The translations under genes were made by a program, and so were the position numbers. This document shows positions 34,737 through 59,900 of a DNA stretch of 64,000 nucleotides, one piece after another. The notes under the pieces are model-generated. The model was not told the origin of the DNA. It saw nothing but the letters and a program-made list of their open reading frames with translations, and searched no databases. The DNA lies in assembly GCA_021234155.1 (NCBI GenBank), contig JAJEKV010000098.1, positions 2,754,592 through 2,818,591 on the forward strand, in the 5' to 3' direction. The stretch comes from Isoetes taiwanensis (taxonomy: Eukaryota; Streptophyta; Lycopodiopsida; Isoetales; Isoetaceae). Every line of letters starts with the position of its first letter. The first letter of the stretch is position 1.

Positions 34737-36423
34737 GTAGTAAGAGCTGGAGAGAGTACCCCACTGAGAATGGAGTTCCGCTATTGAACATTATGATAGG
34801 TGTCAGACAAGTCATATACCCTTACTGCACGTTGTTTGAATCCGTCTTCCAATGACATTTGGAAAATGAATGCCCTCTGTCCCCAACACTATTCGGTACA
34901 TACATAGATGCATTACAAGGGTTCATCACAGAACGCCAAGGGGATACAGACGCCCCCACACTGGGGGACACCAAGGTACCTATCATGCTATATGCAGATG
35001 ATTTAAGTATGATGGCTACAAAGAACAAGGATATGCGCAGGTTACTAGGGCTATTAGAGGCATTTTGTAAAAGGACAGGGCTAACAGTAAATCTCGCAAA
35101 AACCAAAATAGTTACATTCGGCACCAAGAATAAGCACATACCCTTCAAATATATGGGGACAGAACTGGAAGAATGGACGGAGTACAAGTATCTAGGATAT
35201 GATGCACACGGCACAGGCAATTGGTCCAGGGGGGCAGATGCCAGATTTCAAGCAGCCATTGGAACCTATTTTAGTATGAAAAATTTCCGTAATAGGAGCA
35301 GAATAGTTAACTGGGAGATCAAGTGTTACCTGTTTAATACAGTAGTTGCGCCAACACAGCTATATGGATCAGAGGCATGGGGACCCGGCCTATCAGACAA
35401 AAAATGGGATAAGCAAGAAGGGATCTTTAGGCAATGGCATAGACAAGAATTCAGAGTACGGGCAAACACACCTCTGACAACCATGGTATATGAGATAGGC
35501 CAGAAACCAATGGAGGTGAGGGCATGGGAGAGGACCGTCAGATACTTGATGAAAGATAACAAGGGTGGTCATACTGGGAAGCTGTCAACAATCGCAATCA
35601 GCGAATCAGCCAAGTCACATATCATCACAGGCCGCGGGTGGTTCAGGGAGATGGCAGTATGGACTAGAGAGATGGGGCTAAACCTGAGTGATGTAGTAAA
35701 TGAAGGAAAAAATGGAATGAAGACTGGGCCAAAATAGCAACGAAAGCATGGCTACAAAAACATAGCGGTCCCAAAACACTATGGCTAACAGCAATCTTCA
35801 ACCCGGAGCAACAGATAGGACAATCGGTATATAGGGACAATCTAATAGGGAAGACGAGAAGGGACACTTTGGCAAGATTTAGAATGGGGAGCCATGATCT
35901 AAGAATTGAAAAGGACAGGTGGAGGAAAGTGGAAAGAGAAAACTGGATCTGTAGAATTTGTAACACAGGGAAAGTGGAAGACGAGAATCACATGCTCAAC
36001 GAGTGTACAGTGTATGGAGACATCAAAAGCAAGTACGAAATATAAGATGGGGACAGCCGGCACACATCTTAATGACAAGAGGGGATACAATAAAAGATAT
36101 GGCAGATGCAATCAGGGAAATGACAACTAAACACTGGGAGTTACACAAAGAAAGAAGGCTTATAATATGAACCATCAGAAAGGTGGGACATCAAGGCCCG
36201 AAAAGAGCTCAGCTAAAAGCTGATGATAGTGACGCACCACCGTGCAGCCATGATGCCGATTATAAGCGGGGTGCTAGTATCAATAGAAAATAAGAAAAGC
36301 CCTCCGAAAGGGCTACAATATATCAGCGTGTTGCACTAGTAGCACCCTTTGGGAGCTCGCCCATGCTACATCAGTACGGGGGCCTCAGGGCACTGGGGAC
36401 AATAATTCTATTCTATTCTATAT
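34737..36423 (+). mobile_element. 5'-truncated non-LTR retrotransposon
   Basis: The 34859-35737 frame carries the reverse transcriptase C-terminal half: ECPLSPTLFGTYIDAL (motif B), LYADDLSMMA (motif C, catalytic Asp pair intact), then a thumb region. A further frame to about 36043 has RRDTLARFRMGSHDLRIEKD and a C-R-I-C ... ENH ... C zinc knuckle typical of LINE C-termini. Upstream, GVRQ (34799-34810) is separated from CPLSP by about 60 bp that do not belong to the domain and include an in-frame stop. The 3' end has ATTCTATTCTATTCTA repeats (about 36402-36419), a simple-repeat tail. Truncated and disrupted, so inactive. Confidence 0.8.
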
Positions 36424-36664
36424 AGCCGCATATGCTTAGAAGCACGATACTTGTCTGTTTAATGTATGCTGAAAGTGGGATCTCTAAAAGAAATTAGAGC
36501 CCATTAAATCTCCCTTCCCTTTCCTCCAAATTCATTCCACTCCAAAATGACGGCATTACTTGCATTATGATCCGAGCAAAAAACCACAGAAGTATACTCT
36601 CCAAAGAGCATATGAGATCCTAAAAAGAGTCGAGGGCGATCCTTGTGTGAGAGAATAGCTGAGG
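36424..36664. other. flank between two LINEs
   Basis: No gene. Its last ten bases, ATAGCTGAGG (36655-36664), are the likely target duplication of the next LINE. Confidence 0.45.
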
Positions 36665-36668
36665 GATT

Positions 36669-38015
36669 TTGATTGCTCTATACCAACAATTAGTGGCTTG
36701 CAGGTCTGTTGTACCATCAGATGCCCAACAGGAGAAGCAAATTTTGGCCAGCATTAGACAGATGGAAGCTGAGCAAGTTCATCATGCTCGAGTTAAAGCG
36801 GGCCTACAATGGTTCAAAGAGGGGGATCGTTGCACAAGCTTCTTTTTTAGGGCTGCAAAAATTCGGAGACAAGCTTCTGCGATGGTGTCTCTCCAAGTTC
36901 AAGATGGGCCTCTCATTTCTGATCTTGAGCAACTTAAGTTCTTTCTGCATGGCCACTTTTCTTCCTTTTTTGCTTCTCGTCACCTTCCCTTCCAATCAGA
37001 TTTTCAGGAGGCATTACTGGCAAAGATACATCCTATTATATCTGAGGAACAAAGAGCTACTCTAGAAGCAGAGATTACGATGAATGATTTAGTAGATGCT
37101 ACCTTCCTTTTGAAGAAAGGAAAGTGTCCTGGAATTGATGGTATTCCTATGGAGTTCTTTCAGGAGTTATGGAATTGGGTTGGCGATGATGCATACGATG
37201 CGTTTCAGGATTTCAAGAGGCAAAGGCGTCTAGACAAAATTCTTAACTCGGGCTACATTTCTCTTATTCCCAAGTGCACAGAATCTTCATCAATTTTGGA
37301 CGGGCGCCCTATCACCTTGCTATCTTCTGTGTACAAGATTTTTGCCAAAGCTTATGCGCAAAAGCTTCGGGATATTCTTGCTAATTCCATATCCTCTACA
37401 CAGTCAGGAGTTTTGCCACGACGATGCATATTAAACAATGTAGCTACTGCCTATGAAGGTATTTACTAGGCTCGACTTCAGGGCCATGAAATTGTATATT
37501 TGAAGCTGGACTTTGCAAAAGCGTATGACAGTGTCGACTGGGCCTTCTTAGAGAAATGTCTCTTACGCTTTGGTTTTGGTGCACAATTCATAGCTGAGGT
37601 CATGAGGCTTCATTATTCTGCTTGCTCTTCTATTCTCTTCCAATGGGAACCCTCAGCATTCTTTCAGGTGGGTCGTGCCATCCGTCAGGGCTGCCCATTA
37701 GCTCCATTGTTATTTACAGTTGTGGCAGAGGTCCTTGCCCAGGTCTTCTTTCTTGCCCCACAGGATGGAATCTTGCATGGCCTTCCTATGAACAATGGGT
37801 CGCAGAAGATCTGTAATCAATATGCGGATCACACTTTTCTTTTTCTAAGGGCAGATGAACAAAATTTGCAGAATGTCGTTTTCTTGTTGGATTCTTTTTC
37901 CCTAACATCTGGTATTTTTGTGGGTTGGCAGAAATGCACAACACTATGGGCATTGGACTCTCCAGTTCCACCATGTGTAAACTGCCTATCCATGGAAGAT
38001 CCTTCCCCATGGTAA
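36669..38015 (+). pseudogene. LINE reverse transcriptase, catalytic Asp lost
   Basis: Frame open to a TAG at 37467, then in the same frame to 38015. Motifs in order: KKGKCPGIDGIPMEFF, GYISLIPKCTESSS, RPITLLSSVYKIFAKAYAQK, KLDFAKAYDSVDWAFLEKCL (motif A), RQGCPLAPLLF (motif B), then NQYADHTFLFL in place of the usual YADD (motif C). Loss of the second Asp removes a metal ligand, so this RT is dead even apart from the stops. Confidence 0.85.
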
Positions 38016-40047: not shown

Positions 40048-40689
40048 TTATTGCAAAACCTCTTTCGACAAGTTAACTACATAAGTGATGTCCGGTCGAG
40101 TGCAGTTAGCAATGTATAATAAGCAACCAACCAATGATCTGTACGGTCTGGCCTTCATTTCTTTAGTCTCCTTTGGGTTCTTAGGACACATATCTCCGCA
40201 AATTTTTACTCCTGAAGCCATAGGAGTTTTTGATGGATTGCATTCAAGCATTCTAAATTTCGCTAATACTCCCTTAATATTTTGTTCCTGCGTAAGATAG
40301 AGCAATCCCCGTTCTTTATCTCTTCGAACTTCCATTCCTAGCAATTTCTCCAAATCTCCCAAGTCTGTCATCTGGAATCGACTATTCAGTAATGCTTTGC
40401 AATCTATCAACAAACTTCTGTCATTGCTTACAATGACGCAATCATCCACATAGAGTGCCATAATTAGACATTTGTCCCCATTTCTTTTCATGTATAGATT
40501 ACCCTCCGTTCTTAACTTTGCAAACCCTGCAGAAATCAGAAACTTGTTTATGCACAAATACCACTGCCTGGCTGCTTGCCTGAGTCCGTAGACTGCCTTT
40601 TTTAACTTGCATACCATGTTCTGACCCTGTTCATAGCCCTGTGGCTGCTCCATGTATATTTCTTCGTCTAAATCCCCATTCAAGAATGT
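40048..40689 (-). pseudogene. copia reverse transcriptase, main part
   Basis: FLNGDLDEEIYMEQPQGY, then CKLKKAVYGLRQAARQWY, LIMALYVDDCVIVSND (YVDD catalytic motif intact) and RPDITYVVNLS. The domain starts at the edge of an insertion: the preceding residues DVKTAF lie beyond 41677. Confidence 0.9.
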
Positions 40690-41677
40690 CACGGTTCTAT
40701 TGCGAAGTATTCGCAATAGAACCGCCATTCTTTGGCAAGGGACGTTGCTATTCCAGGACTGCCTTCTTCTATATATACTCTTCCTTTTCAGTTTTTCCTT
40801 TATCGGCGTTCTCTTGAGCTAGTTCTATACTTTATTCTGTTCCTTCTAGCTTCCCTTATCCCTCCCACCATGACATGGTTCATTCTATGGTGTGGTCTAG
40901 TGGTCTCCAATTTTTATACATTTCTCTAAGTTTATTCTCGGCATGGTGTTGTAGCCTTCTGGGCAATATCTATTTTAGTTTTCTCCTGCTTCTCTATTCC
41001 ACCAGTTTCCCTTGTCCTTTCTTCCTTGATGAATTGTTTGCACTTGATCGTGTCTGTTTTCCCGTTTGTTTCTATATTCTTGATGTGCATTCTTCATTTT
41101 TTTCTCGGCGTGGCATGGTAGCCTCCGAGGCATATTTATCATTCTTTCTCGGCGTGGCAATGTAGCCTCCGAGGCAGCACTAATCGAATGTTTTTTCCCG
41201 TGATGGTCATTCCGCGGATGGTTCTCGATTGGTCGGCTGTTGTTTCCTTCTCGGCGTGGCCCTGGAGCCTCCGAGTTTTACGCTAATTTTTATATTGCGC
41301 ATTAGTGCACGTTCTTTCTTGTAGCATCTAACTCCCTGACGGGTTATTTTCTTTCAGCCTCAATTTTGCAGGTTATTTTTTAAAGATCTTGTGGCTGCCA
41401 GAGTACGCGGGGTCATACTTGCTTGGCGCAATGTTTTCGAGTTGTCTCTCACCTTTGCATAGACCAGACAACGGACTCTTTAGTTTCTTCGTGCTCTCGA
41501 TGATTGTCTAGTTTCGGAGCATTTAATTTTCAAGTTTTCAAAGTTTTCTACCCTTAGTAAGGGGATCAATTTGTACTCTATGATTTTACAAAGCTCAATG
41601 AGAACACCACTTCACTTCACTTCGGCTGATATATCTTGTGTCTAGGACCTTGCCATAGAATGCAGTCTTGACATCCA
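40690..41677. mobile_element. roughly 1-kb insertion in copia RT, type unknown
   Basis: The RT reading is cut between DVKTAF and FLNGD, and GAATG (40685-40689 and 41678-41682) flanks the extra DNA as a 5-bp duplication. At the left edge lies a perfect 15-bp hairpin stem (CGGTTCTATTGCGAA and its complement, 3-nt loop). A 30-bp motif with TTCTCGGCGTGGC ... TAGCCTCCGAGGCA is repeated three or four times in the middle. The right part has a TTCACTTCACTTC run. No protein and no LTR are recognised. It could be a non-autonomous LTR or SINE-like element. Confidence 0.6.
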
Positions 41678-42437
41678 TATGGTTTATCTCCATGTCATTC
41701 TGCACTGCAACTGCAAGAAGTGTCCTCAGACTGGTTACTTTGACAATAGGCGAGAATGTATCCTTGTAATCCACACCTTCCTCTTAAGTATACCCTTTTG
41801 CAACCAGTCTTGCTTTATACCGCTCTACTGATCCATCTGCTTTTCTTTTAATTTTAAATAGCCACTTGCTTCCCACGACGTTCTTATCTTTTGGCCGCGA
41901 CACGAGTTCATAGGTGCCTGTCCTTTTAAATGAATCTAATTCACTTTGCATAGCCTCTCTCCATCGATCTGCATCCTTTCTTTCTAAGGCTTCTTCCACT
42001 GTTTCTGGCTCCACTGTACAAGACAATACCTTAGGCTTTCTTGGTCTGGTTGTCTTCCCACTTTCTGCCCTGCCATATAAACTCGTGTCAAATGAAACTC
42101 CGGCTTTTAGGCGTTCTGCATCACTACGCCGAGTCCTCCTACTTCCTTCTCCCACCAGACTGTTCGGCAAACCTGCATGCTTAAGCATGGATCTAGCTGC
42201 GTTCATGATGGTGCGATTTTTGCGTTCCGCTACTCCATTCTGCTGAGGTGTGTACCTGCATGTATATTGTCTTCGTATCCCTCGCACTTGACAATACCTA
42301 CAGAATTCAGACGACCTATACTCTCCACCAAGGTCAGACCTCAGACATTTAACTTTTAGTGATGTTTCCCTTTCAACTTCCGCAATATACAATCTAAATG
42401 CATCAAATACTTGGTCTTTGGTCCTTAAAAATAACAT
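41678..42437 (-). pseudogene. copia integrase C-terminal part and RT start
   Basis: From 42437: FLRTKDQVFDAFRLYIAEVE, RSDLGGEYRSSEF, then TPQQNGVAERKNRTI (catalytic Glu). GLPNSL is then joined directly to a basic, Arg-rich linker, so the usual stretch beginning WAEA is deleted. RT begins in TVEEALERKDADRWREAMQS and KWLFKIKRKADGSVERYKAR. A TAA (CAA would give the usual Gln) interrupts KGYT-EEGVDY at 41786. Confidence 0.88.
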
Positions 42438-43120
42438 TTAGTACGTCTACTGTAATCGTCAATAAAGGTAGCGAAGTAGGATTTTGCTCCTCTACTTTCA
42501 ACCTGCATAGGCCCGCAAACATCTGAATGCACTAGTTCAAGCAATTCATGCGCCCTTTTCCCTTTATTTCTAAATGTCACTCTGCTTTGTTTTCCCAACA
42601 TGCAAGCTTCACACATGTCATCAACATCGCAATCCTCATAATCAAGCTCATCTAACAGATTGTGCCTTTTGGCTATTCTAATGTTGTTGTAACAGACATG
42701 CCCTAATCTCAAGTGCCAAAGCTTTAAGCTATCGAGGGGAGATACCTTATTGATGGTATCATTCACATCCAATTCAAACAGATTTCCTCTTCTCTGAGCT
42801 TCAAACAATTTAATGCCTCCTCTAATAAATTTGCATCCATACTTATGAAAAAACAAGTCATATCCATTATCAACCAAATTGGCAACTGAAATTAAATTAA
42901 ACAACATTCCCGGCACAAATAAAGTATCTGGCAAACTCAAAACATTCTTGCCTTTAACTAGAATATGCAAACTCCCTTTTCCAAGCACCTTTTGCATTGC
43001 TCCATTGCCCATCTGTACAGCCTGGCAATCCACACTTGGCTCAATGCATTTCAACATGTCAGGCGAGCTCACTATGGAGACTTCAGCTCCAGAATCTACA
43101 GTCAGGGTATTAGTTTGTCC
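42425..43120 (-). pseudogene. copia protease and integrase N-terminal part
   Basis: TLTVDSGAEVSIVSS is the aspartic protease active site. LPDTLFVPGMLFNLISVANL follows, then the integrase zinc domain (LWHLRLGH ... CEACMLGKQ) and the start of the core (LELVHSDVCGPM, FIDDYSRRT). The frame is lost near 42425, where the next piece continues one base away. Confidence 0.9.
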
Positions 43121-44097
43121 AACTTTTTCTTTGCAACATTAATTTTCGAAATGTGATGTTCATTTTTGAAAAGCGATTTGCAAGTACTTACTTCTTCTTC
43201 TGTGAGAGCTCCCACTGTCGGTGCTTTTGCCTCAGATGTCTCTCCAACTGCTGCAACCACAGTGCGTGCCCTTCCACGACTAAACGAACCACGACCACGT
43301 CCTCGATACCATTTTTCTCGATTCGGACACTCCGCCTTGATGTGACCAAACTCTCCGCATCCGTAACATTGTATCTCTGCTCTCCCCCTTCCTCTGCCTC
43401 TTCCGCGTCCTCGACCTCTCTCTCTGCCAGATTCTCCTGCATACAAGGTAATTGGGTGCTCTTCTGTCTCCCCTGGCACTGGTTTTACCAAAACCTCCTG
43501 TTCAAGCTCAGTTCTAATTGCTTCTATTGCTTCATCCAGGGTGGATGTAGTCCTTCTCACTAGCATAGCTAAATCTTTAAATGAAACTTGAAATGCTCTG
43601 GTTAAGGCTAATACCTTCTGCTGCTCATTATAACGTGCTCCAGCTCCATCCAAATCGTGTAACAGCAATCTAAGATTTCGTATCAAGCTCTTGAGATCAT
43701 CACCTTTCTTGAATTGCAAGTTGCGCAATTTCATTTCCAAGATATCAATCTGGGTAGACGTCTTCTCCTCATATCTTTTTAGAAGATACTTCCATATCTC
43801 TCTGGCCTGTTTGTGCTGAATTTCAAGCACAATGTCACCACCCAGCTTCGCCATGATAATGGCTTTTGCAATCTCCTCCCTCTCGTCATCTGAAATTTTA
43901 GTTTCCTCAGATCCCGATGCTTCCGCCTTTACTTTAGACTTGGATGGAATCTCCCTCTCTTTGGCTGGATCCACCAGATCCCACAGCTTATCTATCTTCA
44001 GGGCCTGCATGATTTTGGCCTTCCAAAGCTGGAAGCCAATGTCTCCATCAAACACTTCAGTACTGTTGAGATAGGTCAATGCCAATCGGCTGGCCAT
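43102..44097 (-). CDS. copia gag, 331 codons
   Basis: Open from ATG at 44097, about 20 bp after the primer site, to a TGA beside the protease. It begins MASRLALTYLNSTEVFDGD, has the LWDLVDP and RNLQFKKGDD regions of plant copia gag, an Arg/Gly-rich stretch and one zinc knuckle, CYGCGEFGHIKAEC (C-x2-C-x4-H-x4-C), which binds the RNA. The protease lies in another frame, entered around 43135, either by mutation or by a programmed shift. This is the only uninterrupted gene of the element. Confidence 0.9.
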   Translation of the reverse strand: MASRLALTYLNSTEVFDGDIGFQLWKAKIMQALKIDKLWDLVDPAKEREIPSKSKVKAEASGSEETKISDDEREEIAKAIIMAKLGGDIVLEIQHKQAREIWKYLLKRYEEKTSTQIDILEMKLRNLQFKKGDDLKSLIRNLRLLLHDLDGAGARYNEQQKVLALTRAFQVSFKDLAMLVRRTTSTLDEAIEAIRTELEQEVLVKPVPGETEEHPITLYAGESGRERGRGRGRGRGRGRAEIQCYGCGEFGHIKAECPNREKWYRGRGRGSFSRGRARTVVAAVGETSEAKAPTVGALTEEEVSTCKSLFKNEHHISKINVAKKKLDKLIP

Positions 44098-44106
44098 ATC
44101 TTTCTA

Positions 44107-45039: not shown

Positions 45040-46526
45040 AAAGTTTTAGGAAACCTTTCTAGTTTTTCTATTATGCTACACATTTTTAGCATCACGTGGC
45101 AGGTTCTACTCCCACAACAATTCTTGCAATTTTAGTTTGCACACATGCCTGACATGTCATGCTAAAAATGATGTGGCTGCCTTTGAGTTTTGTAATTATC
45201 AATCAGATGGCTAGCAAAATTAGAAATTCTCTGTGAATTTCCATTCATCCTTTTGATGTACCTGTGGCAGCTTCTCTCTTGACATAACTATTTCTTGTAC
45301 TTAGGATGAGGTCTTGCTTTTAGATATGCGATCAATTGTCCCACAATTTTGAAGGAGAATGCAGACTAACCCATTGAGTAGCACCATTTGATTCAGGCAA
45401 AAGAAACCAAATTTGAAGAATTGAAGACAAAATTTAAGTTGGTAACCAAGAGTTACCTTTATGAATATTTTCTCTATTTTTTATCTACTCTCACTTCATT
45501 GGCTTTGTATTTTTTGGTATGGCTGATGTTGATTTTGGCTTGTGGCATCTGCTTATCAATTTTGTTAGAAACCAAGATAGAATGAATAGCAGGTCAAATT
45601 TATGGATAATACAGCTTGGATCTGGTAAACTCTCAAGTCTTTTATTGTTTATATTAGACATAAGGTATCGCATGAAAACATGGATTGCCAATGCCAAAAG
45701 TGATGCAGGTTGTTTATGTATTGACCCACAAATGAAGAGACATGTTTAATCTATACTTCCATTTGAATATGATTATTGCTTGCATTAGCCATTTTACATT
45801 TTGCTACTATACTTTGCGACAGTGACCTTTAACAATTGTTATATATAATAAGTGGAAGAATGTAGATAACAAGCAGGGCGTATGGGCAAAACCCTTCAAA
45901 AGAGTGGATTGAGATAGATTATAAGCTACATCAGTTCATAATTAGTGATAAATGAGTGCAAATTTTTGGAGGGTTTTTCTGGGAAGGGTTTCGAGGGTTT
46001 ATTAGATTATGTCTTTTTTTTTTTTTTTTTTGTCAATGGTTCTGAGATATAAAAGATGCACTTCTAGACTACATATTATAATAAATATAACTACACCAAA
46101 GTAGTATATTGTCCATACCACACCATACTCCTTACTATGTTATGTCCATACATCATACTGCCCATACTATTATAATAAATATAACTGCTCTAGTGTTCAT
46201 ACTGTTATTATTATGTCCATAGTATATGCATAGAAAAAAGAGAGCATTGTAAAGCAAATTGTTTGAAGTAAACAATGGAAGCCAAAACACTATGAGAAAC
46301 AATAATGTTATGAAAATACAGCCACAAGAAGTCGTCATCCTTCTTCACACTCATCATCTACAAGCAGACAACATCGACGTCTCCCTTCCACTTGAATTGG
46401 CGATTCCCTTGTTGACAATAGTGATGCGACTGATTCTGCACACACAGGAAGAACGCTAATACATAAAAAAAGTTAAGTAGCATTGACATAAATGCTAAAA
46501 AATTACAGTAGAAAAAAACAAACATA
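45040..46526. other. no gene recognised
   Basis: AT-rich. One open frame at 45388-45585 encodes a hydrophobic peptide but has no support as a gene. Poly(T) run of about 18 at 46014-46031. CATAC(C)-rich simple sequence lies at 46105-46220. Confidence 0.45.
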
Positions 46527-49500
46527 CTATGAAGGTTCTTCATCTTCCTCTGCCACTTCGTCGTCTGAATCCTCGGGATGATCAATGTTCCTTTCATCAA
46601 ACTTTTGTAAAACACTTGCTAAGGCTGAAAGACGAGATGCCTTTACATCAGTTTATCATTATCCAACCCTTAGCAGTGACGAGATAAAATAGCAGATGCT
46701 ACCAATGCTGAACCTGTGCCGCTAAGTAGGTCCAATACCAAGCCTTCTCTTGGACTAAAATTCTCAATAATAAACTCCATGAAAGAAATGGACTTCTCGG
46801 TGGATTTCCTACCAGGCGTAGTAGGACTTACTGTAAGTTTACTGCCTTCCATGAAGAAATAAGCAAGAGATTGCTTGGAGATTGAAAGACGTTTGTCTGA
46901 AATGGACAAATATTAATAAAACATGAAACCAGATATAGTAAAACTAAGATAAACATAAAATCAATATACATCAAATAAGATAGCTTGTAATGTAATAGAT
47001 ACAATTGAAGATCACTTACTTGAGAACTGAACATTACTCTGAATGCTTGGTGAAGTACCCTTTCTTGACCATACAGTCACTAGCAACACGTTGCTTGTGA
47101 ACTTCCCAATTATGTTCTTCATGTATCCAAAAGGGGCATCCTGATGCAAGTAGTAAGTTCTAAAGGGCTCCAAGCATTTTAATGTTGCCTCTTTCTCCAC
47201 TATTCTTGCTTGTTCAACCGAAGAAATGGAGACCAACCAGCCATCATCATCAAGGCACAATGTGCCAAACGAGAAAGAGGCTTGGATTAAAGAAGTGTTG
47301 CATACGTTCCATGGAGGAATCTCAAAATCTTCCCCGCATGACATGTTATTCGTAGGGAAATCAATAATTATTAACTCAAACCCCCAATCCCTGACATTAC
47401 CACCTCTCTTGTACTCATGCAACTTCCTAGCATTTCTCTTTGCAAAATCTATAACATTTTGAAAAACTGGAGCTTCTACCTTCTTTGAATATTGTTCATA
47501 CATACGCAATGCAATTCAAGCGAAGTGTTTGTAATCACCTTGGCAATGTCAAAATGTTGGATATCTTCCTCTGAAGTAGCCTCGGATAAATCCAAATCAA
47601 TTGCTGCAGTAGCTGCCACATGTTTAAGAAAGTGTCACACGTTTGTGAAAGATCTATATTCACATGAATGCAAAAAAATAAGTAAAATTATTTACCAGAC
47701 GCTTGTGACTTTTCTTGATTTTTTCTCTTTCTTTTCACATCTCTTTTATCGATTGGAGCATTCAAACTTCTTTTTATCGTTTCACTAGAATCCACTTTGC
47801 TCGTGAGCTTTAAAACTTTCACATTTGCCTTATACTCTTCCTCCTCACTTAATGGATATTCTCCACTAGCAAAATCTATCCACCAAGGACAATTTTGAGC
47901 TTCATAATCACTTAGACCACCTGGCCTATCCAAGTTTCCCATTTTTGAGTACATGGAATTTTCATCTGTGGACTTCCAACATTCCAATTCAGTTGGAAGA
48001 TTTGCTAAAAAAATTTCACTGAGAATGTGTTTGTAATATCTGCAAAATTGCACATAACATTTAGATGGATTCTTATAAGAGAAATAAATGCAGAAACTTT
48101 TATACCTGTAGGCTACTCTTCTTGAACTTCTATCTATCTCATAGGAAGAGACATGAGCTGTAATTGCAGACATATGTTTGTGATATGGCTTGAACATATT
48201 GGCTTTGTTCTTTAATTTGAAGGCTTGGAACCAGCTTTCCAGGTCTGCACCATATGAAACTTGAATCTGCAATTGATATGTTGCAGAAGTCTCAGTGAAG
48301 ACTTCACAAGACTTCTCAACCAAGTGCTCCAACCAAACTTCCTTTTTTATTCAGTCCTTAAAGCTTTTGTCACCCTTAGGAATCCCATGCGTGCTGTGGA
48401 TATCAGACCCAGACGACATCCAATGCACCCAACGATCTCTTATATCATTGGGTACCTTAGCCTTCACCATGTCAAGCAACTTTTCAATGGACAAACACAA
48501 TGTTTTGGTGTCAAAATCAGCTCTAGTAACAACATCTAACCAACTTGGACCCAATGCAGGATTGACTATGGCAAGCAACTTTCCCATTTTCTGTACTCAT
48601 TTATCTTGGACCCTTCTTGTGGCTGCTGTCCACAAGGCCTCTTTGTCATCATTATCTTTTGCTGCTGCCAATTCAACTGCTATCTCCTTATCCATTTGTC
48701 TCTATCTCAATTACAAGGACAATCCAATTTGTTATGAGCACACAAATGAGGACAATAAATTCAAAAGGGTTAATAAACAAGTATGTCATGTAACCTGGAA
48801 TAGTATCTTGCAGTAAGCCAGACGCGGTAGTTGATACCATTGTTCCGTGCCAGTACTGAAAGAAGCATTATCTTTAATCTTCAATGTAGCCAGGTATTGA
48901 GGATCAAGTTTGGAAAAATATTGCTCTGGATTTGCTGTAGCAATTTTGTGGACACTATATATTGTATCCTTCATTGTGTTATGAACAACACCATCTTCAT
49001 TCAACCTAAAATGCACATGAAAATCATCAACAAAATTCAAAACCATAACAATGCAAAACATGCAACCCACTTACTCGTTAACTCTATTGAGGGCCGAAAT
49101 GAGTTGTTGAACATGGCACTTCTCCACGTCAATGAAAGACACTTCAACTCGAATGTGCCTGCTCTTCTCATAACAGAATTGATGGTTGTAACGTATCTCC
49201 TCCATCCACGCTACTTTTCTATGGTTACCATCCCAACAAAGGAACATTTTACCTGACAAGTCCTTCCACTCCTCGGAAGCTTTAAGTTCCTTCTCAAAGT
49301 CATCGTTAACTTCATTCCAGTAATCATCCCATTTAGAGCGAATAGAGTCCGTAACTGGAACATCACATCCCTTAATGGATTTCATGGATAGCACAAATTT
49401 TCCTTTCTCAGGTAAATATCCATCATTATGAAGTATATCCCTCATCTTAGTATCAGATTTTGAGACTGCACGCACGGCTTCATTTCGCAAAACACGACAA

Positions 49501-49815
49501 AGGGGAATCTTGGGAGGTTATGTTCCTCTCTCAATGCGACATTTGCTCATTATGTCAGCCACCATCTCGTGAGCAAAAACCTATACAAAGTTCATGATTA
49601 AATATTTCACAAGGAGAAAAAGAAAATGATCCAATTCGAGAACCACTCACCTGTGCAAATTCTGGATCAGTGGCAATCATAACCTGAACATCACTTGGTT
49701 TGCCTTTCTCTGCCATTGGACTTTCTATATCTTTGGTCATTGCTGATTCGGTTAACACTGGGTCGGGGGCTGTAGATTTGAGTGTAATTTTTTGTGGTTT
49801 TTTGTCGCTGGGCAA
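46527..49815 (-). pseudogene. ParB-like domain plus beta-class DNA methyltransferase, decayed
   Basis: Seven exons fit splice consensus: 49815-49651, 49580-49075, 49005-48795, 48701-48106, 48039-47696, 47612-47020 and 46896-46527. Exon 2 carries a ParB/sulfiredoxin-like signature (KMFLCWDGNHRKVAWMEEIR). Exon 6 has a motif-IV-like strand, ELIIIDFPTNN (families usually have D/S/N-P-P-Y/W/F). Exon 7 has GRKSTEKSISFMEFII then GLVLDLLSGTGSALVASAIL, which is motif X plus motif I (SAM binding). This order (IV before I) is that of beta-class N4-cytosine/N6-adenine methyltransferases. The C-terminus is acidic (DDEVAEEDEEPS). Lesions: stops at 49520, 48599, 48353 and 46672, and frameshifts near 47510 and 46650. 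It lies 195 bp downstream of the SWIM transposase on the same strand. Confidence 0.72.
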
Positions 49816-50009
49816 AATGGGCTTTTTTTCAGACCAAATAATATTATATACAAAATAGAAAATAACATTGGCAAATTGCCTAAAGAGTTAAATAAACGGA
49901 ACAAATAATATTAATAGATTGAGTACTCAAACAACGCTTACTATAATAGTGCTATAATATACTAATAGTAGATGAAACACAAATAACATTTATCCAATAC
50001 AATAATACC

Positions 50010-52735
50010 CTAAGCTAGAATAACATCCAGCACGGAATCTGGAAACATTGGTTGTATCAGTCGTAGATCAGCCAAAGGATCCCTCCCAAGCACCTTAGTG
50101 TATATGTAGAACAAGTGCTTGCAAGGAACAAATTGCTTCTTGTTGCTCCAATGCATGAAGTCTGGACAGGTGCAGGCTGGTTCACGTTTTATGCTAACTG
50201 TGTACACTTTACCTTCTCTTTGGATTGTGTAGTTGACATGCCTCCTTTGAATTACTGCTTCCCTGGCCACATCATCGACCACCATATCTTTACTTTGCTC
50301 AAGGTGCACCATCCCAAATTTGGTCAACTCCTTCCTTTTATTCACACGTCTTCCATCCCTTGTCATGCGGACACTTTCAGAAACATCATTATGTGATGTT
50401 TCCTCAACTGCACTACCAGTGTGAATGACTGGTTGCATGTGAATCCCATCTAACTGGTATCCTTTGTTCACCAAGAACTCTATTTCATCCTGTCGCAGAT
50501 TGCTTCCTCTTGCAACTGGCCATAGTTGTGGTCTTAGAGGTGGGTGCAACAGAGCCTTATCTGGGTACCATGTGCACTTCACATTAACGGACAAAACCAA
50601 ACTAATTGTTCCCTGTGATCCCCCACGAATGTCGATTCCATAGAAGCTAGGTCTTTGCAAGAGAAGACAATCCCTTGTTAATTTTCTTGTTACATTTCCT
50701 TCCATTTTAGGATGTCATTCCACGACATTTAACTTGATCCGGCCAGATTGTTCTTTCGATAGCCCAAAAAGTGTTGTGAACATCTCTCTCCACCCAGGCG
50801 AAGATGTAGCAAACAAACAGATTTTCGACCACCGGATCATCGGGAAGCAACTCTTGGAATATTATGTGCTTGCTTATCCAGGCGTCGCGTTCGAGAACCC
50901 CGTGTCAAGTTCCCATCATTTGAGATTGTTTTTGCTTCTTGGATATAGTTTGACCATTTCCACTGTCCACGAAACATGTGGATACATGCCATGTCCGCCA
51001 ACTTCTCGATTAAAACATTCAAATAGCAGACTTTTGACTTAATACCACCTTTGCTAAGTTGCCCTTGCGATCACGGTAAAATAAAGTCGAAATTCCAGGT
51101 CCAGGACCAACATAGTTGTGCTCTAAATATGATTTGTACCTTGTGCTCTGCAGTAATGCTTCAGTAAGGTCAAAAAGACTTGCATCATATAATGTTAAGG
51201 TTCTAGTGTATGTCGATTGCAGCCTAACCAACTCCCATGTGCGGATTACGACAAATTTGTGTCGCATATACATAAGCGTGGATAAGTCCGTGGCTGGCCT
51301 TCATATAATTTCCCCATCTACTTATTCTATGGTGCCACCATGCTAACCATGAGGACAAAGAGTTTACATCACTTGGTGAAGCCTTGCCATGCCACCAATC
51401 TATGATTGATTGATACATCTTCTCAGCATCATCTATTGTTCTTGTCTATATTCTGGATATATAAGACTCTTAGTATGGCGTTGTAGACACTGTTCAAAAT
51501 GGAAAACACAAGATCTTTCTTTTTCGGTGTGTATTTGGCCATTATAAAATACTTCTCTAATTGCTGTCCAATTGGCTTGGGCCTCATCACCATGAACCCG
51601 TGGAAACTCTGGCCGGGTGGATAGTTCTTACTAGTCATGACCTTATTTAGCTTGACCCAAAATTTCTTTTGAGACAAGACATCTTACATTTTCATGTCAC
51701 ATACAAGCTATGGTCATCAAACCCCTAACATCAGAATGTAACAATGGTATTCAAGATATTATATATTGACTTAGGTTAAATGGATACTACCAAATGCAAT
51801 ATATAAATAATACTTACGTGGGGTCATATACATGGCAAGCAAGGGTTGTCCAACCTTGAATGCTTCGCGTGATCAAAATGCACCCATGCCTTTGATAAAT
51901 CACCCGGATGGCGCGATTACGTTTTACTAAATCAACTCGAGGCCGGCCCATTAGTAGACATTTTGAAAACATAACATCTTTCATTCTCGCCATGTGCCTG
52001 ATAAGGAAACTTGGATCCATGAAAATATTCATAACGACACCTTCGTTTTAGGTTGAGTATACTGCTAATATCATCACAACATTCTTTATTCTTTATTCGA
52101 GCATTGTCTAACCATCTTCTCAACCTATAAAATAAGTAAATTTTAATCAGAGGCTAATCAATGTCAATATAATGTACTTATGAAATGAGTTTTTTTTCCT
52201 TACCTTCTCTGGTTGCAAAGTGGTTCGGTCGAATTAGAATAAGCTCATCCATTTGCTCGACACTCAACTTGTTCACATGATCTACGTCAGCTGTTTCAAT
52301 GACACTTTTGCAAATTTCTTGCATGGCAATTTCGTTTTGAGCATGTCTAGTTCCCTTCAGCTTGCAAGAAGATTGCACAGAACTCTCTAAGATTGATCTC
52401 AAGTGCAATATATCAGATCTTGATTGCACACGCCTTATTGGATGACTATGACTGCCAGTGTGTATAACTAGCCTCGTATCATGAATATTGTCTGGAATAC
52501 AGTAATATACCATTGCATTGCACAACCCCACACATGAAGGTTGCTCTTTGCAATATTCACAACACAATGATCCATGTTCCTCGTTAACCTCACCAACTAC
52601 AGGCCTCTTGTTTATAGCCCCTTTCCATTGCACATTGTTAGCCTTCCCATGTGTAAGATTATAATCACACCAGGGGTTGAGACCCTCTAGCTCTCCAGCA
52701 CAATACGATAGCCTAACAGTCCCACGAACTGCTGG
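50010..52735 (-). pseudogene. MULE-like transposase with SWIM finger, copy 1
   Basis: Homologous throughout to the copy at 56458-59518. In order: a cysteine-rich N-terminal finger (NPWCDYNLTHGKANNVQWKG, CCEYCKEQPSC, then HTGSHSHP), intron after 52204, GSKFPYQAHGENERCYVFKM, WTTLACHVYDP, QKKFWVKLNKVM, and a DDE-type core (DEAQANWTAIREVF, SCVFHFEQCLQRH after a one-base shift near 51575). It continues WWHGKASPSDVNSLSSWLAW and LEHNYVGPGPGISTLF, and ends with the SWIM finger CTCPDFMHW...CKHLFYIY. The SWIM finger (C-x-C-xn-C-x-H) and MULE-type core are DNA-binding and transposase parts. The 5' end is cut at about 52735; several frameshifts and a TGA before 50705 disrupt it. Confidence 0.75.
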
Positions 52736-52937
52736 TACTGGCTCTATGATGGAAGCATGCGCGTTAAAAGGTGTTCATTACTTTGGAACTGAGAAGGATG
52801 AAGTGTTGGTTCAGTCTGTGCTTGCTTTGCGGCGTTGTGGGGCTCCTTCTATTGATCTTGACAAATCAGATGAGAGTGGAGATGAAGACGACATTGAGAA
52901 TGTTCCAGATCAGGATGTGGACGAACCCTTGGACTAG
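52711..52937 (+). pseudogene. C-terminal fragment of a second DNA methyltransferase copy
   Basis: The frame reads TAGTGSMMEACALKGVHYFG, followed by TEKDEVLVQSVLALRR and an acidic tail (DESGDEDDIENVPDQDVDE) to a TAG. The G-T-G-S motif followed about 14 residues later by an acidic T-E-K-D is motif I and the ribose-binding acidic residue of an amino-methyltransferase. The same layout and acidic tail occur in the gene at 46527-49815. Everything N-terminal to motif I is missing. Its left edge meets the truncated head of the minus-strand SWIM transposase, so the junction is a breakpoint. Confidence 0.6.
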
Positions 52938-53390
52938 TCCGTGAGTTTTTCAGTTTCATACTTTGCTATTAAGCTTTTGATCTTTTTATGCATCGACATA
53001 TTTACTAATACATCTAATTCTTATGCAGCACGTTTAAATTACCGGTATATGCAGAAAGTGAAGCTCGATATATGTCCACGTACATGATTCCTATACATTT
53101 GAAGGAAAAAAAAAGAAAAAAATGCAAATTTGTAGATGATGAGGCACAACTAGCATAGAGTGCATACTTTTGACTCTATATTTTGTTGTTTATGTTATTT
53201 CACTTATGGTGTCCACCATTGTGTTTGTCAAATTCGTTTTCTTATGATAATAGAAGCTATAGGCATGCATTTGACACTAAATTCAAGGGGTAAATACATT
53301 CTTCAAATGTCAAATTTCATGTTAAGATAAGGTAGCTAGTTTGGGGTTGTTTGTATGCTTGGTTTCAATTTCAAGCGTTCAGATAAAATC
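52938..53390. other. 3' flank of the methyltransferase fragment
   Basis: No gene. A-rich run at 53105-53120. Probably former 3' untranslated and flanking DNA of the transposon. Confidence 0.35.
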
Positions 53391-53606
53391 TTATCTTGGT
53401 CTCAAAAAAGCCCAGAGTGCCCAAATAAAAAAGCCCATGAAAAAGATTTTCCCTGTAGATTTTGTTTCTTCTTTGGATACCTCCAGTGAATGTGAATGCT
53501 TCTGTCGCCTTCTCTTTGGTGGTGTGTAAGCTAGAGGAACAAATGGGATGGGAGTTTCGTTTCTAGTGTGAACCATAACAGACCATGTCCCTAATCTGCA
53601 CAACAC
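53391..53606 (-). pseudogene. possible exon of an unknown minus-strand gene
   Basis: After an acceptor-like TTGTGCAG at about 53600 a frame runs through TWSVMVHTRNETPIPFVPLA, then PPKRRRQKHSHSLEVSKEET, to a stop at 53391. The basic, Ser-rich stretch looks like a nuclear-targeting segment. It could be the last exon of a gene whose upstream parts are the exon-like cassettes at 53.7-55.7 kb. Speculative. Confidence 0.25.
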
Positions 53607-53687
53607 CAAAAGTAATCAATATATATAAAATGAATGCATTGAACCTTATTTTTGGTTTAACAAACAAACATTATGAATGAAAGTGCC

Positions 53688-55700
53688 AACCTTTTTGGAA
53701 GAGCGCCACCACACTGGGTCTATAGTCTAGTGTCTGGTTTAGATCTTTGTCTTTTGCTAGATAAGAGACACCACCATCAATAACAACTATCTGACATGGA
53801 TCTGCCAAAAACCATAGAATATTTATTTACTCTAAACAAAAGATGAAGAGAGCCACATTATTATCCATAAGGGATCTCAACATTTCGAAGACATGTCAAA
53901 AAAAGAGCAAGAAAAAATACAGCCGAGCAAATTGCTAACAAACAATAAACAATAAACAAAAGAACAAACAATAAACAGCCGAGCAAATGGATCTAAGACC
54001 ATAACAAACAATAACTAAAGATAACAATAAACTAAGATAACAAACAATAACTAAAGAGTGTTGGAGCTTTTCGGAGGGGAGCCACCCCATTATAAGGTCT
54101 GAGCATAGCACTAATTTTAATACAATTGTAAAACTTATATCCAGATATAATTATAAGATCTGAGCATAGCACTAAGTTTAATAAAATTATAAAACTTATA
54201 TCCAGATATAATATCTGGAAACCCCAATAAAATGGTCGGAGCTGAAATATCCGGGGAGTTCGGCGAATATGAAGAACACGATTTGAGGAAATATTATATA
54301 GAGTCATATTATATTTGAGTCATATTATATAGACTGCCACTTTAAAAGTGTACAGTTCAAGGCCTCAACATAATTCTTATGCAGGCTCTGCGACAATCAT
54401 GGCATGGATGTGGCTATAGCTGTAACACTAACTTTGTCCATGGTTCTGCTCAATTGGTTTGCAGAATCTTATGCACAGGAGACCTTGCTTAGGGCCTAAG
54501 AGTGCTTAAAAGCAATGCTTACATAAACAGAGTTTTAGAACATAAACAGAGTTTGAGAACATAGTCATCAAAATTTGAATGTTTCAACTTACCTTCCCAG
54601 AAGTGGTGCCCCGCCACACTAGGTCTGCAGACTGTTGCCCGGACTTAAATGTTTGTCTTCTGCCATCATGTTCTGAGCAACAAATTGTCCCAATTAATCT
54701 CAAGAACAACGACATTTCAACAACCAGTTTAAGTCATATATCTACATCAGAATAATCTACCCGTTTAAGTCATATATCTAAACATCTGCAGAATAACAGA
54801 CCCGAAATTGTAAAAGCTTAAGCAAGCAGAACTGTAAAATGTTGAAGTCCATAAATAGCAAATAAGCTGAATCAGGCCGAGCTTGAAAACGTTGGAAGCC
54901 ATAGATTGAAAACATTGAGTTTTGATTAACCATTATAGCTAGGAAACTAACCTGAACCATTATAGCTAGGAAACTAACCTGAACCAAACCATTGTAGCTA
55001 GGAAACTAACCTAAAATTGCTTGAGACCGTCAATGGCCTGTTTTGCAATGAAATTGCAAGTCCAGTGTAGACACACAGAAATTTGGATGATTAAAGAAAG
55101 AAGAAGGAGCTATCTTCTTGTAGTGATATCCTGATTCAAGGTGTAATATCTGGACTTTCTGAGACCTAAATAATGACAAATAGATGCGACAAATTCCTGA
55201 GAAACTGAACATTTGTGTCTACTGAGTTTGAGTTTGCTTACTTTCCCAGAAGAGGTGCGTCGCCGCACTAGGTCTGCAGACTGTTGCCTGGACTTAAGCA
55301 AGCAAGCGGAACTGTAAAATATTGAAGTCCATAATGACAAAGAAGGTGTAATATCTGGACTTTCTGAGACCCAAATAATGACAAATAGATGCGACAAATT
55401 CCTGAGAATCCTACTGAACATTTGTGTCTACTGAGTGTCTACTGAGTTTGCTTACCTTCCCAGAAGAGGTGCGCCGCCGCACTAGGTCTGTAGGCCGGTG
55501 TGTAAATGTGTTCAAACAGAATAAAAAACTGGAGCAAGGGTTCAGATAACATATCAGAAACATATCAGAAATCGCCATCCACAAAGAATCATCGAAAACA
55601 TATCAGAAATCGTCATTCACAAATAACAAACATCTAGTTTTTCAAACTGAACTTACCTTACTGGATCAAGTGCGCCGCCGTACTGGGTCTGCAACTGGGC
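53688..55700 (-). repeat. six dispersed copies of a 32-nt exon-like cassette
   Basis: On the minus strand GCAG-ACCTAGTGCGGCGGCGC-ACCTCTTCTGGGAAG-GTAAG and variants occur at about 55700-55652, 55492-55451, 55298-55237, 54650-54587, 54102-54065 (degenerate) and 53730-53688. The best copies have a splice-acceptor-like and a splice-donor-like border. Flanking intron-like sequence is also duplicated; for example GACAAATAGATGCGACAAAT occurs at 55168 and 55380. GC content of the cassette is well above the AT-rich surroundings. Function unknown. Confidence 0.55.
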
Positions 55701-56457
55701 AGATGATTTTCCAAACACAGTTGATTTTCAGAAAGACCTGATAGCAAGAAACCAAAATTTCCAGATAGAACTGATAGCAGATACAAAATAACAGTATGTT
55801 TGCCTATTGGTTTGAAAAAGCAATGGTTCAAAAATTAAGTTTCACAAAAGCAATAGAGGTTGCAAAGGCATTATTCAAAAATTCTTGCCTACATTTTCAA
55901 ATATTTTTTTTAACGCAAATATTTGCAAAGGCATTCTCAAATATTTTTTAATGCCTACATTTTCACACATCGCATGTCCCTAAAATATTTAAACGTTTTA
56001 AACGGACGGAAAATATTGCATTTTGTAATTAGCATACGAAATTGTTGGCGTGCAATTTATTAATTATGAATATTCGTGACAGTAATTAATTATGTTGAGG
56101 ACCTCAATTGATTGTTCAACGTCTTCAAATTAGCTATTCTTGTTTTAGTAGTCTAGTTTCCTGCGAGAGAGTTGTCTGTGTAGCACGAAGTTATTTGTTG
56201 TTGCAATGGCTGCAAAGATCGTGAGATTCCTTTCACCTAAATGACGATAACTTCATCAACTGCAAAACATTGGAGAATGGTATGCTCTTTTGTGAATGGC
56301 AGTCAAACCCGGGTTTGTTGGTTGGGTGAGAGCTCGCACCTTTATAAATGAAAATTGTGTGTTGTGCAATCCAAGAGCGTGCGGCAGAAATCGGACACAA
56401 TTCTTCACCGGTTGTGAATCAAGGGGCGTATCATGTATGTGGCCCTAGTTCCCAGTA
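55701..56457. other. no gene recognised; upstream of transposase copy 2
   Basis: Two similar TTTTTTAA-containing blocks at 55890-55960. The stretch 56100-56457 has plausible leader character for the next gene, but no TATA box can be fixed. Confidence 0.35.
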
Positions 56458-59400
56458 ATGGAAACTCTTATTACCGGCGGCACACCTTTTATTCTTGAGG
56501 TCAGCACTCCTCATGCACCAATAATTGTTGATAGTCCGATCCAGCATATTCGTGAGAGTACTGTAAACATTGTTTCCACGTTTCAAACACTTGTTGATAG
56601 TTTTGGATCTAGCAAACTTAAGAGATTGTGTTCATCTATTAGTGCACCAATATCAGTGAGATGTCTACCCTCTAATTACAATGGCAATGTGGTGTTTGAG
56701 CTACCTCCAGATGATTTGAATTCTATGGCAGGCATGGAAAGAAAGTTTGATCCACATCTCTGGACGAAGCCCGAGAAGACAAGTCATTCATTCGATGGCA
56801 TAGTTAAATATTCCAAGTGCTGTGGTCATTTAAGGTGCATGAATCCAACGTGTGACTATTTTCTTTCCAGGAGTGTGCCAAATGATGTCCAGTGGAAGGG
56901 AACTATGAAGCAGCTACCTGCACTTGGTCCTATATCCCGTTCACATGGAATTCTAGCTTGTGAGTACTGTGAGGATTAGCCAACATGTCTCGCACTATGC
57001 AGTTGCATGATATATTATGTTATACCTAACGAAGCCATGCACACAAGATTATCCATTCATGTTGGTTTACATGATCATCCTATCAAAACTCCTCCAACTC
57101 GTGAAGAAATACATTTGCTGCACCAAATGGTCAATAGTAGAGTTAATGCTTCCAGAGGAAGCAAGAAGGGTGCAAAACAGATACAGATGGAGGTAGCTAT
57201 GGAGCTCACTGTCAACAACTTGATAACAACTACTGATTGTGATGACATACACTTGTGGGGGAGAGATAAAATAGACAATCTTTTGAAGCAACTTCAACCT
57301 CTTTGCAACAAAAGAAGGTATTCTTATACTCAAGTTTAAATTGTAACTATTTGATTATCTTTATTTTCTAAAAATTGGTTCTGTTGTAGGATACGCCAAT
57401 GGATAAATAAGAGTCTTGAAAGTAAAGTCCACCAAAAAGATGAAGTTGGAAAGATCATATACTTAAAACAGCACTGCAAATATCAAAATTTCCACGGTTC
57501 CAAATTTCCATACCAACTTCATGATGAAGAAAATGGTCGGTGCTATATATTCAAAATGTCCACAACAGGAGCAGGTTCTGGAGTGGAACTCGTCAATAGA
57601 ATGCGTCCAAGAGGAGATGTAGAAAGCTCTTGGGTACATTTTGACCACGTAAAACGCACTGTTGGATGGACTACTTTAGCATGTCATGTGTATGACCCAA
57701 GGTGATATTTTTTTCATCATGTTTTTCACTTGCCATTTCAAAGTGTTTATTTACGTACTGTAATTTCTAAAATGTATAGTATGTGTTGCCTTCTTACAAT
57801 AGCAACATGTGACATGAAAACGGAGGATACGGAAGCTCAGATAAAGTTCTGGACAAAGCTAAACAAAGTTATGATACTAAAGAACTCACCACCTTCTTAA
57901 TTCAAAGGATTCATGGCAGACGAAGCTCAGACTAATTGGAATGCAATTCGGCTTGTGTTCAATGATGGCCAGCCCATGGAAGGAAAGGAACATGGCTGTA
58001 AGTTCCATTGGGAACAATGTCTTCAACGACACATAAATAAGTACATATTCCAAGAGCATAGACAAGAGCATCTAAATTTGTGCAGGGCATGGAGATCAGC
58101 ACCCACTGCAGAAGATGCTGAGGTTGCTTTTCAAAATATTGTCAGTTGGTGGCATGGAAAAACTAGCCCTTCAGACATAAGTTCATTAGGCTCGTGGCTA
58201 GCATGGTGGCATCAAAGAGTGAGCAGATGGGTCAACTTCATGGAGGATGGAGTGAATCTAGCAACTGCAGCTCAAATCCCTAACATTAATCTATCAGAAT
58301 CTGTGCATGCTAGTTGGCTAGCATCAAGAGGGTACGTGAATAAATTATCCTTGTACAATGCATGCTTGTACGATCTGACATAAGCTGTGCTGCAAAGTGC
58401 AAAGCACATAGAGAACACAATTTTATTGGAATAGGTCCAGGAATGGATACCTTAATGCGCAGAATGGGCACTCCAGTGACTAGTAATGTTACTCCATCTG
58501 GTGTGTCAGCGCAGTTATCTCATCAGTTTTACATAGTGGTTTAAGACCCATTCATGCAGGTTCAGGAGGAAACAATCAGACTGTGCTAAAAAGGACCAGA
58601 GATAGCACGGAATATAACAAGGATGTGGGTTCCGGTAGCCATCGTCCAGACAAGAGGGCCCATACTCGGTCTAGAGTTAGGGTAGATGCTTCAGCAAAGT
58701 GGAATATAATCTTTGATGATGCTACATACCTTGTACAGGAGTATGATTTGCTGCCAGGGGAATGGGCTATTAGAAGAACAGAGCCTGGTAGTAAAATAAG
58801 ATGTCAAGGTAGAATAAAGTCCAATGGTCGAAGATGCAATGCTGAAATTAATAAAGTTCATACAGAGTCTACTATTGCACCATGCTTCACTGGACAAAGG
58901 AAAGTAAATGGGAGAGAGGTCACACAAAGGTTTTGGTTTTGTCCTCAAAATGTGCAGCATACCTATTATCCAGCTGCAGGCATCATAGCCATACCAACTC
59001 GTCTAGCAGATTGGCCTGTGGCAAAAGGAGTAAATATAACTAGTGCAGAGTTGGAAACATTGGAGAGAGGGAACTATTCCGTTAGAGGGATTACCCCACG
59101 AAACTCAATGCCCGATATGGCTAGTGTGAATTCTTCTACTTTGAACAGCTCTGTCCACTTCATTGAACGTTTTGGCAAGCGCATGAACAGACGAGGGAAG
59201 CTTTGTGTAGAAGCTGAAACAAAGCTTAATCAAGCTTTACAACTGGAGTGTGATATTGAGTCTATAAAGGTCAATATCACCAATAGGGATGTTGCATACC
59301 AGTTGCGTCGACCAGATGAAACTTATACAGTGAGGGTATGCAAGCATCCCACCTGCACATGCCCTGATTTCATGGGTAGAGAACTGAAAAGGATATACAT

Positions 59401-59518
59401 TCCATGCAAACATCTGATGTACGTATTTGCGAAAGTCCTAAACCACGACCCCAGGTTTTTCTTGGACATCATTCAGCCTGTATTGACAGAGGATGTTCTC
59501 CAAAGGGTCCTCGCCTGA
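56458..59518 (+). pseudogene. MULE-like transposase with SWIM finger, copy 2
   Basis: Exon 1 (56458-57317) begins with a non-finger N-terminus, then KCCGHLRCMNPTCDYF, CEYCED, and HVGLHDHP (metal-binding finger, GCM/FLYWCH-like by eye). Introns lie at 57318-57389 and 57702-57779. Exon 2 has GSKFPYQLHDEENGRCYIF and WTTLACHVYDP. Exon 3 has TIATCDMKTED, FMADEAQTNWNAIRLVF and CKFHWEQCLQRH, the MULE-type core. The last part (58583-59518) holds the SWIM finger (CTCPDFMGREL...CKHLMYVF). Stops at 56977 (TAG), 57898 (TAA) and 58381 (TAA) plus a shift near 58400 break it. Aligned to copy 1, the first two stops replace Gln codons. It diverges head to head from copy 1. Confidence 0.78.
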
Positions 59519-59900
59519 GGAAAAACAGTTCTTGGTAGGAAGATTTCCATATCAAATTATAATAGTTATTAGTGTGGTAATTAGCGATTTCGCTAAATGT
59601 TGACTCAAACTTATTTCATTATGGTATGTATATGTTATAACCTTCACACTACACATGTTCATTAGATGAACGCAAATTTGTTTTATGTTAAAAGGTCTTA
59701 TAGTGAATTTTGCTACATGAAAAAAACAAGGTGCTACGCACGAGGGGTTGCCCTCGGGTGGCCCAAGAGTGTGTTTTCATGGGTTCTGTGTGTTGGCTCT
59801 TGTTTGTCTTGTGTGGAGCCATATAAATGCAATGAATGCAAGTTGCCGTTTTTTCTTAGTCCAAGAAGGCGCTCATTGTTGCAGGTTGTCATTGTGCTTA
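59519..59900. other. 3' flank of transposase copy 2
   Basis: No gene recognised. A short open frame at 59666-59908 is not supported by any motif. Confidence 0.35.

Follow-up and report, generated by a model that had tools for sequence, protein, structure and literature searches.

An intron-bearing, methyltransferase-like gene travels with a MULE-like transposon lineage in Isoetes taiwanensis

The window, as we call the whole stretch of 64,000 nucleotides of the Isoetes taiwanensis genome analyzed here, contains element A, a broken copy of a ~10-kb TIR transposon. Its two genes, transcribed divergently, encode a methyltransferase-like protein (the MTase gene) and a MULE-like transposase with a SWIM finger. 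The lineage to which this element belongs has radiated in Isoetes, and its spreading members keep the MTase-like protein functional in some way. In our interpretation, the MTase gene has an accessory role in this two-gene, MULE-like lineage, and its product would bind and methylate the element's own DNA, a reading to which we assign a probability of roughly one half.

In the window, the MTase gene occupies seven exons on the minus strand, which can be joined and have GT-AG borders at all 6 of their 6 introns. A reading of this DNA made from its sequence alone had given the gene an extent of 46527-49815; exons do lie there, but the true start of the protein, MVHTRNETPIP, is at 53576, beyond a nested insertion of 3,673 bp. 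In the related copy L040, the 5' sequence of exon 1 continues directly into MTKDIESP... with no break. The exons, motifs and lesions of the gene, in window coordinates, are:

53463..53576, minus: exon 1, 5' part (MVHTRNETPIPFVPLAYTPPKRRRQKHSHS...; MVHTRNETPIP...), with an uninterrupted counterpart in L040
49651..49779, minus: exon 1, 3' part, placed by tblastn to the copies and by its GT donor
49075..49580, minus: exon 2, candidate N-terminal ParB/Srx-like domain with DGNHRKVAW (DGNHRT[DEV]AW in the family)
49520-49518, minus: stop in exon 2
49232-49206, minus: DGNHRKVAW in exon 2
48795..49005, minus: exon 3, from splice borders and comparison with copies
48106..48701, minus: exon 4, middle region, with two stops
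48599-48597 and 48353-48351, minus: the stops in exon 4
47696..48039, minus: exon 5, from splice borders and comparison with copies
47020..47612, minus: exon 6, N-terminal half of the MTase domain, with motif IV DFPTN and one frameshift
47362-47348, minus: DFPTN of exon 6, in the place of motif IV
46527..46896, minus: exon 7, with motif X, motif I, an acidic tail and one stop
46804-46772, minus: STEKSISFMEF, motif X in exon 7
46738-46709, minus: VLDLLSGTGS, motif I in exon 7
46672-46670, minus: stop in exon 7

With its four stops, the frameshift in exon 6 and the nested insertion in exon 1, the window copy is a pseudogene. The protein encoded by the family measures ~900-980 aa and consists of a basic N-terminus, a putative ParB/Srx-like domain, a middle region (that of exon 4 gave no database match), a permuted MTase fold and an acidic tail. 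The motifs on which the sequence-only reading had been built were all recovered on the minus strand at the positions listed: DGNHRKVAW in exon 2, DFPTN in exon 6 where motif IV falls, and motifs X and I in exon 7, followed by the acidic tail. A chance origin of these motifs is excluded, because the same exons and motifs recur in dozens of copies and the selection on them is purifying. The basic N-terminus is itself conserved (window 53576-53487 and L053-L061), reads MV[EH]TR...PKRKPRGR and looks like an AT-hook or a nuclear localisation signal.

For the C-terminal domain, we compared a profile of the family with six phage ParB-MTase fusions using hhalign, which gave a probability of 96% and E=3e-9 over 180 columns covering motif IV, then motifs X and I, and which placed IDFPTNE over TDPPYNV. 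A profile of 11 copies matched DNA MTases in the PDB (8urk, E=3e-6; DpnA, 9e-5; Adineta N4CMT, 0.0019), and PF01555 matched the MTase half of L058 with 37 bits, above the curated cut-off of 26.7, and the window copy with 24.8 bits (E=2.5e-5), below that cut-off. Given these hhalign, PDB and PF01555 matches, the fold and the permuted order IV-X-I hold, and the profiles identify the domain as a homolog of the permuted beta-class amino-MTases. The proposal that this is a permuted DNA amino-methyltransferase is thereby borne out at the level of homology. We write “homologous to” rather than “active amino-MTase” because the canonical catalytic motif, (D/N/S)PP(Y/F/W), occurs in none of 50 copies. 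In 49 of these 50, motif IV reads D[FL]PT[NH], and in one it reads GFPTN; D-x-P-T is invariant in alignment A2, and the fourth residue is Thr in every copy seen. The aromatic residue of motif IV normally stacks on the flipped base. Catalysis is not assured, because D[FL]PT does not have this residue, while known forms of the motif are SPPY, DPPY, NPPY and DPPW (PMC8885841). No relatives of the domain were found in viral contigs, and phages match its motifs X and I only; the phage matches H3, H4 and H15, which we inspected as candidates for a ParB-MTase fusion, are plain MTases. Another amino-MTase family, distinct from this one and very abundant, is present in the Isoetes genome (L001-L008; PF01555, E=5e-20), with DLPYGF/DIPYGF as motif IV and DAFSGSGTT as motif I; with 2 of 104 members within 20 kb of the transposase studied here, it is not linked to it.

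For the N-terminal domain, the assignment is less firm. WDGNHRT[DEV]AW is nearly invariant among the copies, and the order of segments, IPLCR..N - LR.TLR.DGY - FILS - DGNHR - FV.ID..E..L..AM.RIN, resembles that of ParB. A low-stringency alignment with ParB puts DGNHR over GHGR and MxRIN over ADNK, in the expected register. When columns were permuted, 5 of 200 decoys of the N half and 8 of 200 of the C half reached the ParB score, a marginal result, and the profile comparison with 15 phage and archaeal-virus ParB domains gave a Prob of ~1-2%. Searches of Pfam, PHROGs and the PDB with this domain found nothing, a whole-genome search with the ParB profile PF02195 had no match, and no relatives were found in the viral contigs, prokaryote genomes or phages searched. 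A single-sequence AlphaFold2 model reached a pLDDT of 35 and is unusable as fold evidence. Of the ParB part of the sequence-only reading, then, the motif and the segment order fit and the decoy test is marginal, but the profile and structure databases are negative; we regard the domain as a ParB-like candidate, weakly supported and unproven.

The genome searched for relatives of the gene comprised 1,658,258,908 bases in 1,110 contigs. With exon 6 of the window as query, at least 150 matches were obtained, ranging in identity from 96% down to 33%, many of them without stops; the transposase core as query likewise gave at least 150. Intact relatives of the window pseudogene, presupposed by the sequence-only reading, do exist, as seen in these stop-free matches and in the open MTase gene of the element L058+L077. 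The N-terminal domain and the MTase domain form one gene: in 87 of the 150 N-terminal matches listed, the MTase domain lies within 6 kb on the same strand, downstream in all 87, at a median distance of 2.0 kb among the matches listed. In comparisons between lineages with unsaturated dS, the N-terminal domain, the most constrained part of the protein, has a dN/dS of 0.05-0.09 and the MTase domain one of 0.10-0.25; the youngest pair, L058-L062, reaches 0.2-0.5, as expected of decaying copies. From the ratios between lineages we conclude that the protein is maintained.

In the mechanism that we propose, the N-terminal domain would bind the element's own DNA, at its termini or at the promoter region in its center, and the bound DNA would be methylated at N6-adenine or N4-cytosine by the MTase domain. 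Such self-methylation may help the element to avoid host silencing, or may serve transposition as a mark on its ends and daughter copies. The bolder form of the idea, that a large, long-lived DNA transposon superfamily in a vascular plant writes 4mC or 6mA on itself through a ParB-guided MTase with D[FL]PT as a new catalytic motif, we put forward tentatively. Because of motif IV, the proposed mechanism competes above all with a binding protein that has no catalytic function, a pseudo-enzyme whose fold still binds SAM and offers a DNA-binding surface but no longer methylates DNA; this we consider possible rather than probable. Such a protein would be a sequence-specific DNA-binding accessory or anti-silencing factor (like MURB, VANB or VANC) or a regulator of the divergent promoter. 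In its favor are the constant Thr of motif IV and the strong constraint on the N-terminal domain, and binding or anti-silencing accessory ORFs are normal in MULEs (PMC6446971). A pure scaffold, however, would need neither motifs X and I nor the D and P of motif IV, all of which are nearly invariant under purifying selection. Rather unlikely, in our view, is an active methyltransferase with another substrate, such as RNA, a protein or host chromatin: enzymes of related fold act on RNA or glutamine, and such a substrate would explain why motif IV is unlike that of all canonical base amino-MTases, but the best profile matches are DNA MTases, and a search for an RNA-binding domain found none.

The self-methylating accessory-gene reading has the gene travel with a transposase of its own. 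A cognate transposase lies within 20 kb of 59 of the 143 MTase matches listed (0.5 expected), and 58 of these 59 pairs are divergent; pairing was judged from coordinates, and the pairing fractions are lower bounds. The identities of MTase and transposase to the window family co-vary (Spearman rho 0.88, 52 pairs). In the elements at C1066:6099454, C1054:9785655, C1028:17264781 and C372:48943, the MTase is ~40% identical to the window family but the transposase ~78%; here an exchange of the accessory gene between lineages is possible. A bacterial-type domain in a plant genome could also suggest an ordinary host gene, a bacterial contaminant or a horizontally transferred gene that lies near transposons by chance, but this is very improbable given the GT-AG introns, the at least 150 dispersed copies, the TIR/TSD bounds and the 58:1 divergent pairing, on which chance adjacency and contamination were rejected for the family at large; a domesticated member present in a single copy may nevertheless exist.

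The carrier itself was delimited by comparing the window with other copies. Its features and those of the related transposon nested in it, in window coordinates, are:

45954..59736, no strand: element A, carrier transposon, right end truncated, left terminus GAGTGCAAATTTTTGGAGGG, from boundaries shared with other copies
55942..59515, plus: MULE-like transposase gene of element A, broken, with C-terminal SWIM CTCPDFMGRELKRIYIPCKHLMYVF, conserved in L039, L040 and L044
49780..53452, no strand: nested element B, a related transposon of 3,673 bp that splits MTase exon 1
50013-52774, minus: SWIM transposase of element B
52665-52937, plus: remnant in element B of another MTase C-terminus, GTGSMMEACALKGVHYFG...DVDEPLD
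49770..49779, plus: left copy of the element B TSD, CTGTAGATTT, a site that is single in L040
53453..53462, plus: right copy of the element B TSD, CTGTAGATTT

The left boundary is sharp and the same for the MTase gene copies of L039-L044; it corresponds to window position 45954 and reads GAGTGC[AG]AATTTTTGGAGGG. Element A is common to L039, L040/L045, L042/L047, L043 and L044/L046, where it is bounded by TIRs and TSDs of 8-9 bp (TTCTAATT, CCGAGGCC and TAATTCAG among its copies). Those copies whose right end was read terminate in ...CCTCCAAATAAAATTCCCC; the right TIR was not found within the window. The full-length copy L040+L045 is ~10.2 kb long, and a divergent element, L058+L077, has 7.9 kb with a 34-bp inner TIR (91%), a 9-bp TSD (CGAATGGCA), the open MTase gene and a long-ORF transposase ending in a SWIM finger. 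The inference that the gene is carried by a transposon thus stands, in that its copies are bounded by TIRs and TSDs and keep their pairing with a cognate transposase. The choice of transposase did not survive: all copies that span the site jump from window position 49779 to 53453, so the transposase in between is a nested, later insertion, and element A has its own at ~55.9-59.5 kb. That the MTase gene travels with the adjoining transposase at 49.8-53.45 kb, as adjacency in the window suggests, has a vanishingly small probability and is refuted by the empty site in L040, L042 and L044, from which exactly those 3.67 kb are absent, by the 10-bp TSD that flanks the segment and by its splitting of exon 1.

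Several further observations concern this region. The stretch between the two divergent genes (window 54000-55600) is repeat-rich and varies in length among copies; it may be a promoter that both genes share or an array of binding sites. The subfamilies differ in how the termini (GAGTG... and GGGRAAA...) are placed with respect to the gene order: they are swapped in L058+L077 and in window 49780-53452 as compared with window 45954. Outside the element, two relics resemble, by eye, a retrotransposon of Ty1/copia type with a zinc-knuckle gag, integrase and RT (window 40051-44103, minus) and a LINE-type reverse transcriptase (window 34856-38012, plus).

As for the class of the transposase, five insertions have TSDs of 8-10 bp, and TIRs are present both in L058/L077 and, as shorter and imperfect repeats, in L040, in agreement with the TSDs of 8-11 bp and TIRs by which MULEs are recognized. 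The SWIM finger profile PF04434 matches the L077 transposase with 19.8 bits at a cut-off of 19.6, the window copies scoring below it. We use the label “MULE-like” provisionally, because the MULE DDE transposase domain PF10551 has no Pfam match in the transposase core and the D...CxxH pattern of this core is visible by eye only. PF17015 (DUF5094) also matches the SWIM region of the L077 transposase (E=6e-5), below its own cut-off.

For the sequence-only reading, the combination of a ParB-like domain and a methyltransferase next to a plant transposase was not known to have been described, but a precedent exists. Dinatale et al. 2025 (PMC12477816) describe a protein with a ParB-like part and an N4C/N6A MTase part that the Ectocarpus transposon Sola1-1_Ec32 encodes opposite its transposase, and they cite Petroll 2025 and Iyer 2011 for similar proteins in transposons of red and green algae. 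Since transposon-borne ParB-MTase proteins are reported from brown, red and green algae, the kind is already known. Compared by description rather than by sequence, the Isoetes proteins resemble the algal accessory proteins in size (~1,000 aa), in joining a bacterial-type MTase to a putative ParB-like domain inside a DNA transposon, and in being encoded opposite the transposase strand, as in 58 of 59 Isoetes pairs among the matches listed; they differ in occurring in a lycophyte, in MULE-like elements with 8-10 bp TSDs, a SWIM transposase and at least 150 copies, and in having D[FL]PT. With phage ParB-MTase fusions, M.DpnA-type enzymes and Adineta vaga N4CMT (PF01555), they share the order IV - X - I and profile homology, but unlike the PF01555 enzymes they have a motif IV without the second proline and the aromatic residue, a long middle region, introns and a transposon as carrier. 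The VANDAL/Hiun MULEs of Arabidopsis, with VANC (PMC13317346), are likewise plant MULE-type elements with an extra gene beside a SWIM transposase; VANC, however, is not an MTase, and causes hypomethylation. Other mobile elements also bring their own epigenetic enzymes, but of other families and in other element types: TET/JBP in fungal transposons (PMC12730594), DNMTs in Symbiodinium and charophyte retrotransposons (PMC5890265) and, as cited in these two papers, SET in Phytophthora MuDR (PMC12730594) and Dam-like MTases in DIRS elements (PMC5890265).

We found no earlier report of such transposon cargo in a vascular plant, and within the literature searched, surveys of MULEs or of gene capture in plants mention none. 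As far as this literature shows, then, what is new is the vascular plant, the MULE-like element, the copy number of at least 150 across deep lineages, the measured selection and D[FL]PT. The prevailing view of vascular plants is that their transposons are marked by 5-methylcytosine alone, and real roles of 4mC or 6mA in these plants are disputed. A maintained bacterial-type MTase fold in a two-gene transposon is a concrete, testable candidate source of 4mC/6mA in a lycophyte, and would widen the range of the ParB-MTase accessory proteins from algae to land plants and to one more transposon superfamily. The motif D[FL]PT raises the question of whether amino-MTases can work without the canonical aromatic residue, or whether the fold has taken on a binding role instead. 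Work on 6mA or 4mC in such plants should also take these genes into account.
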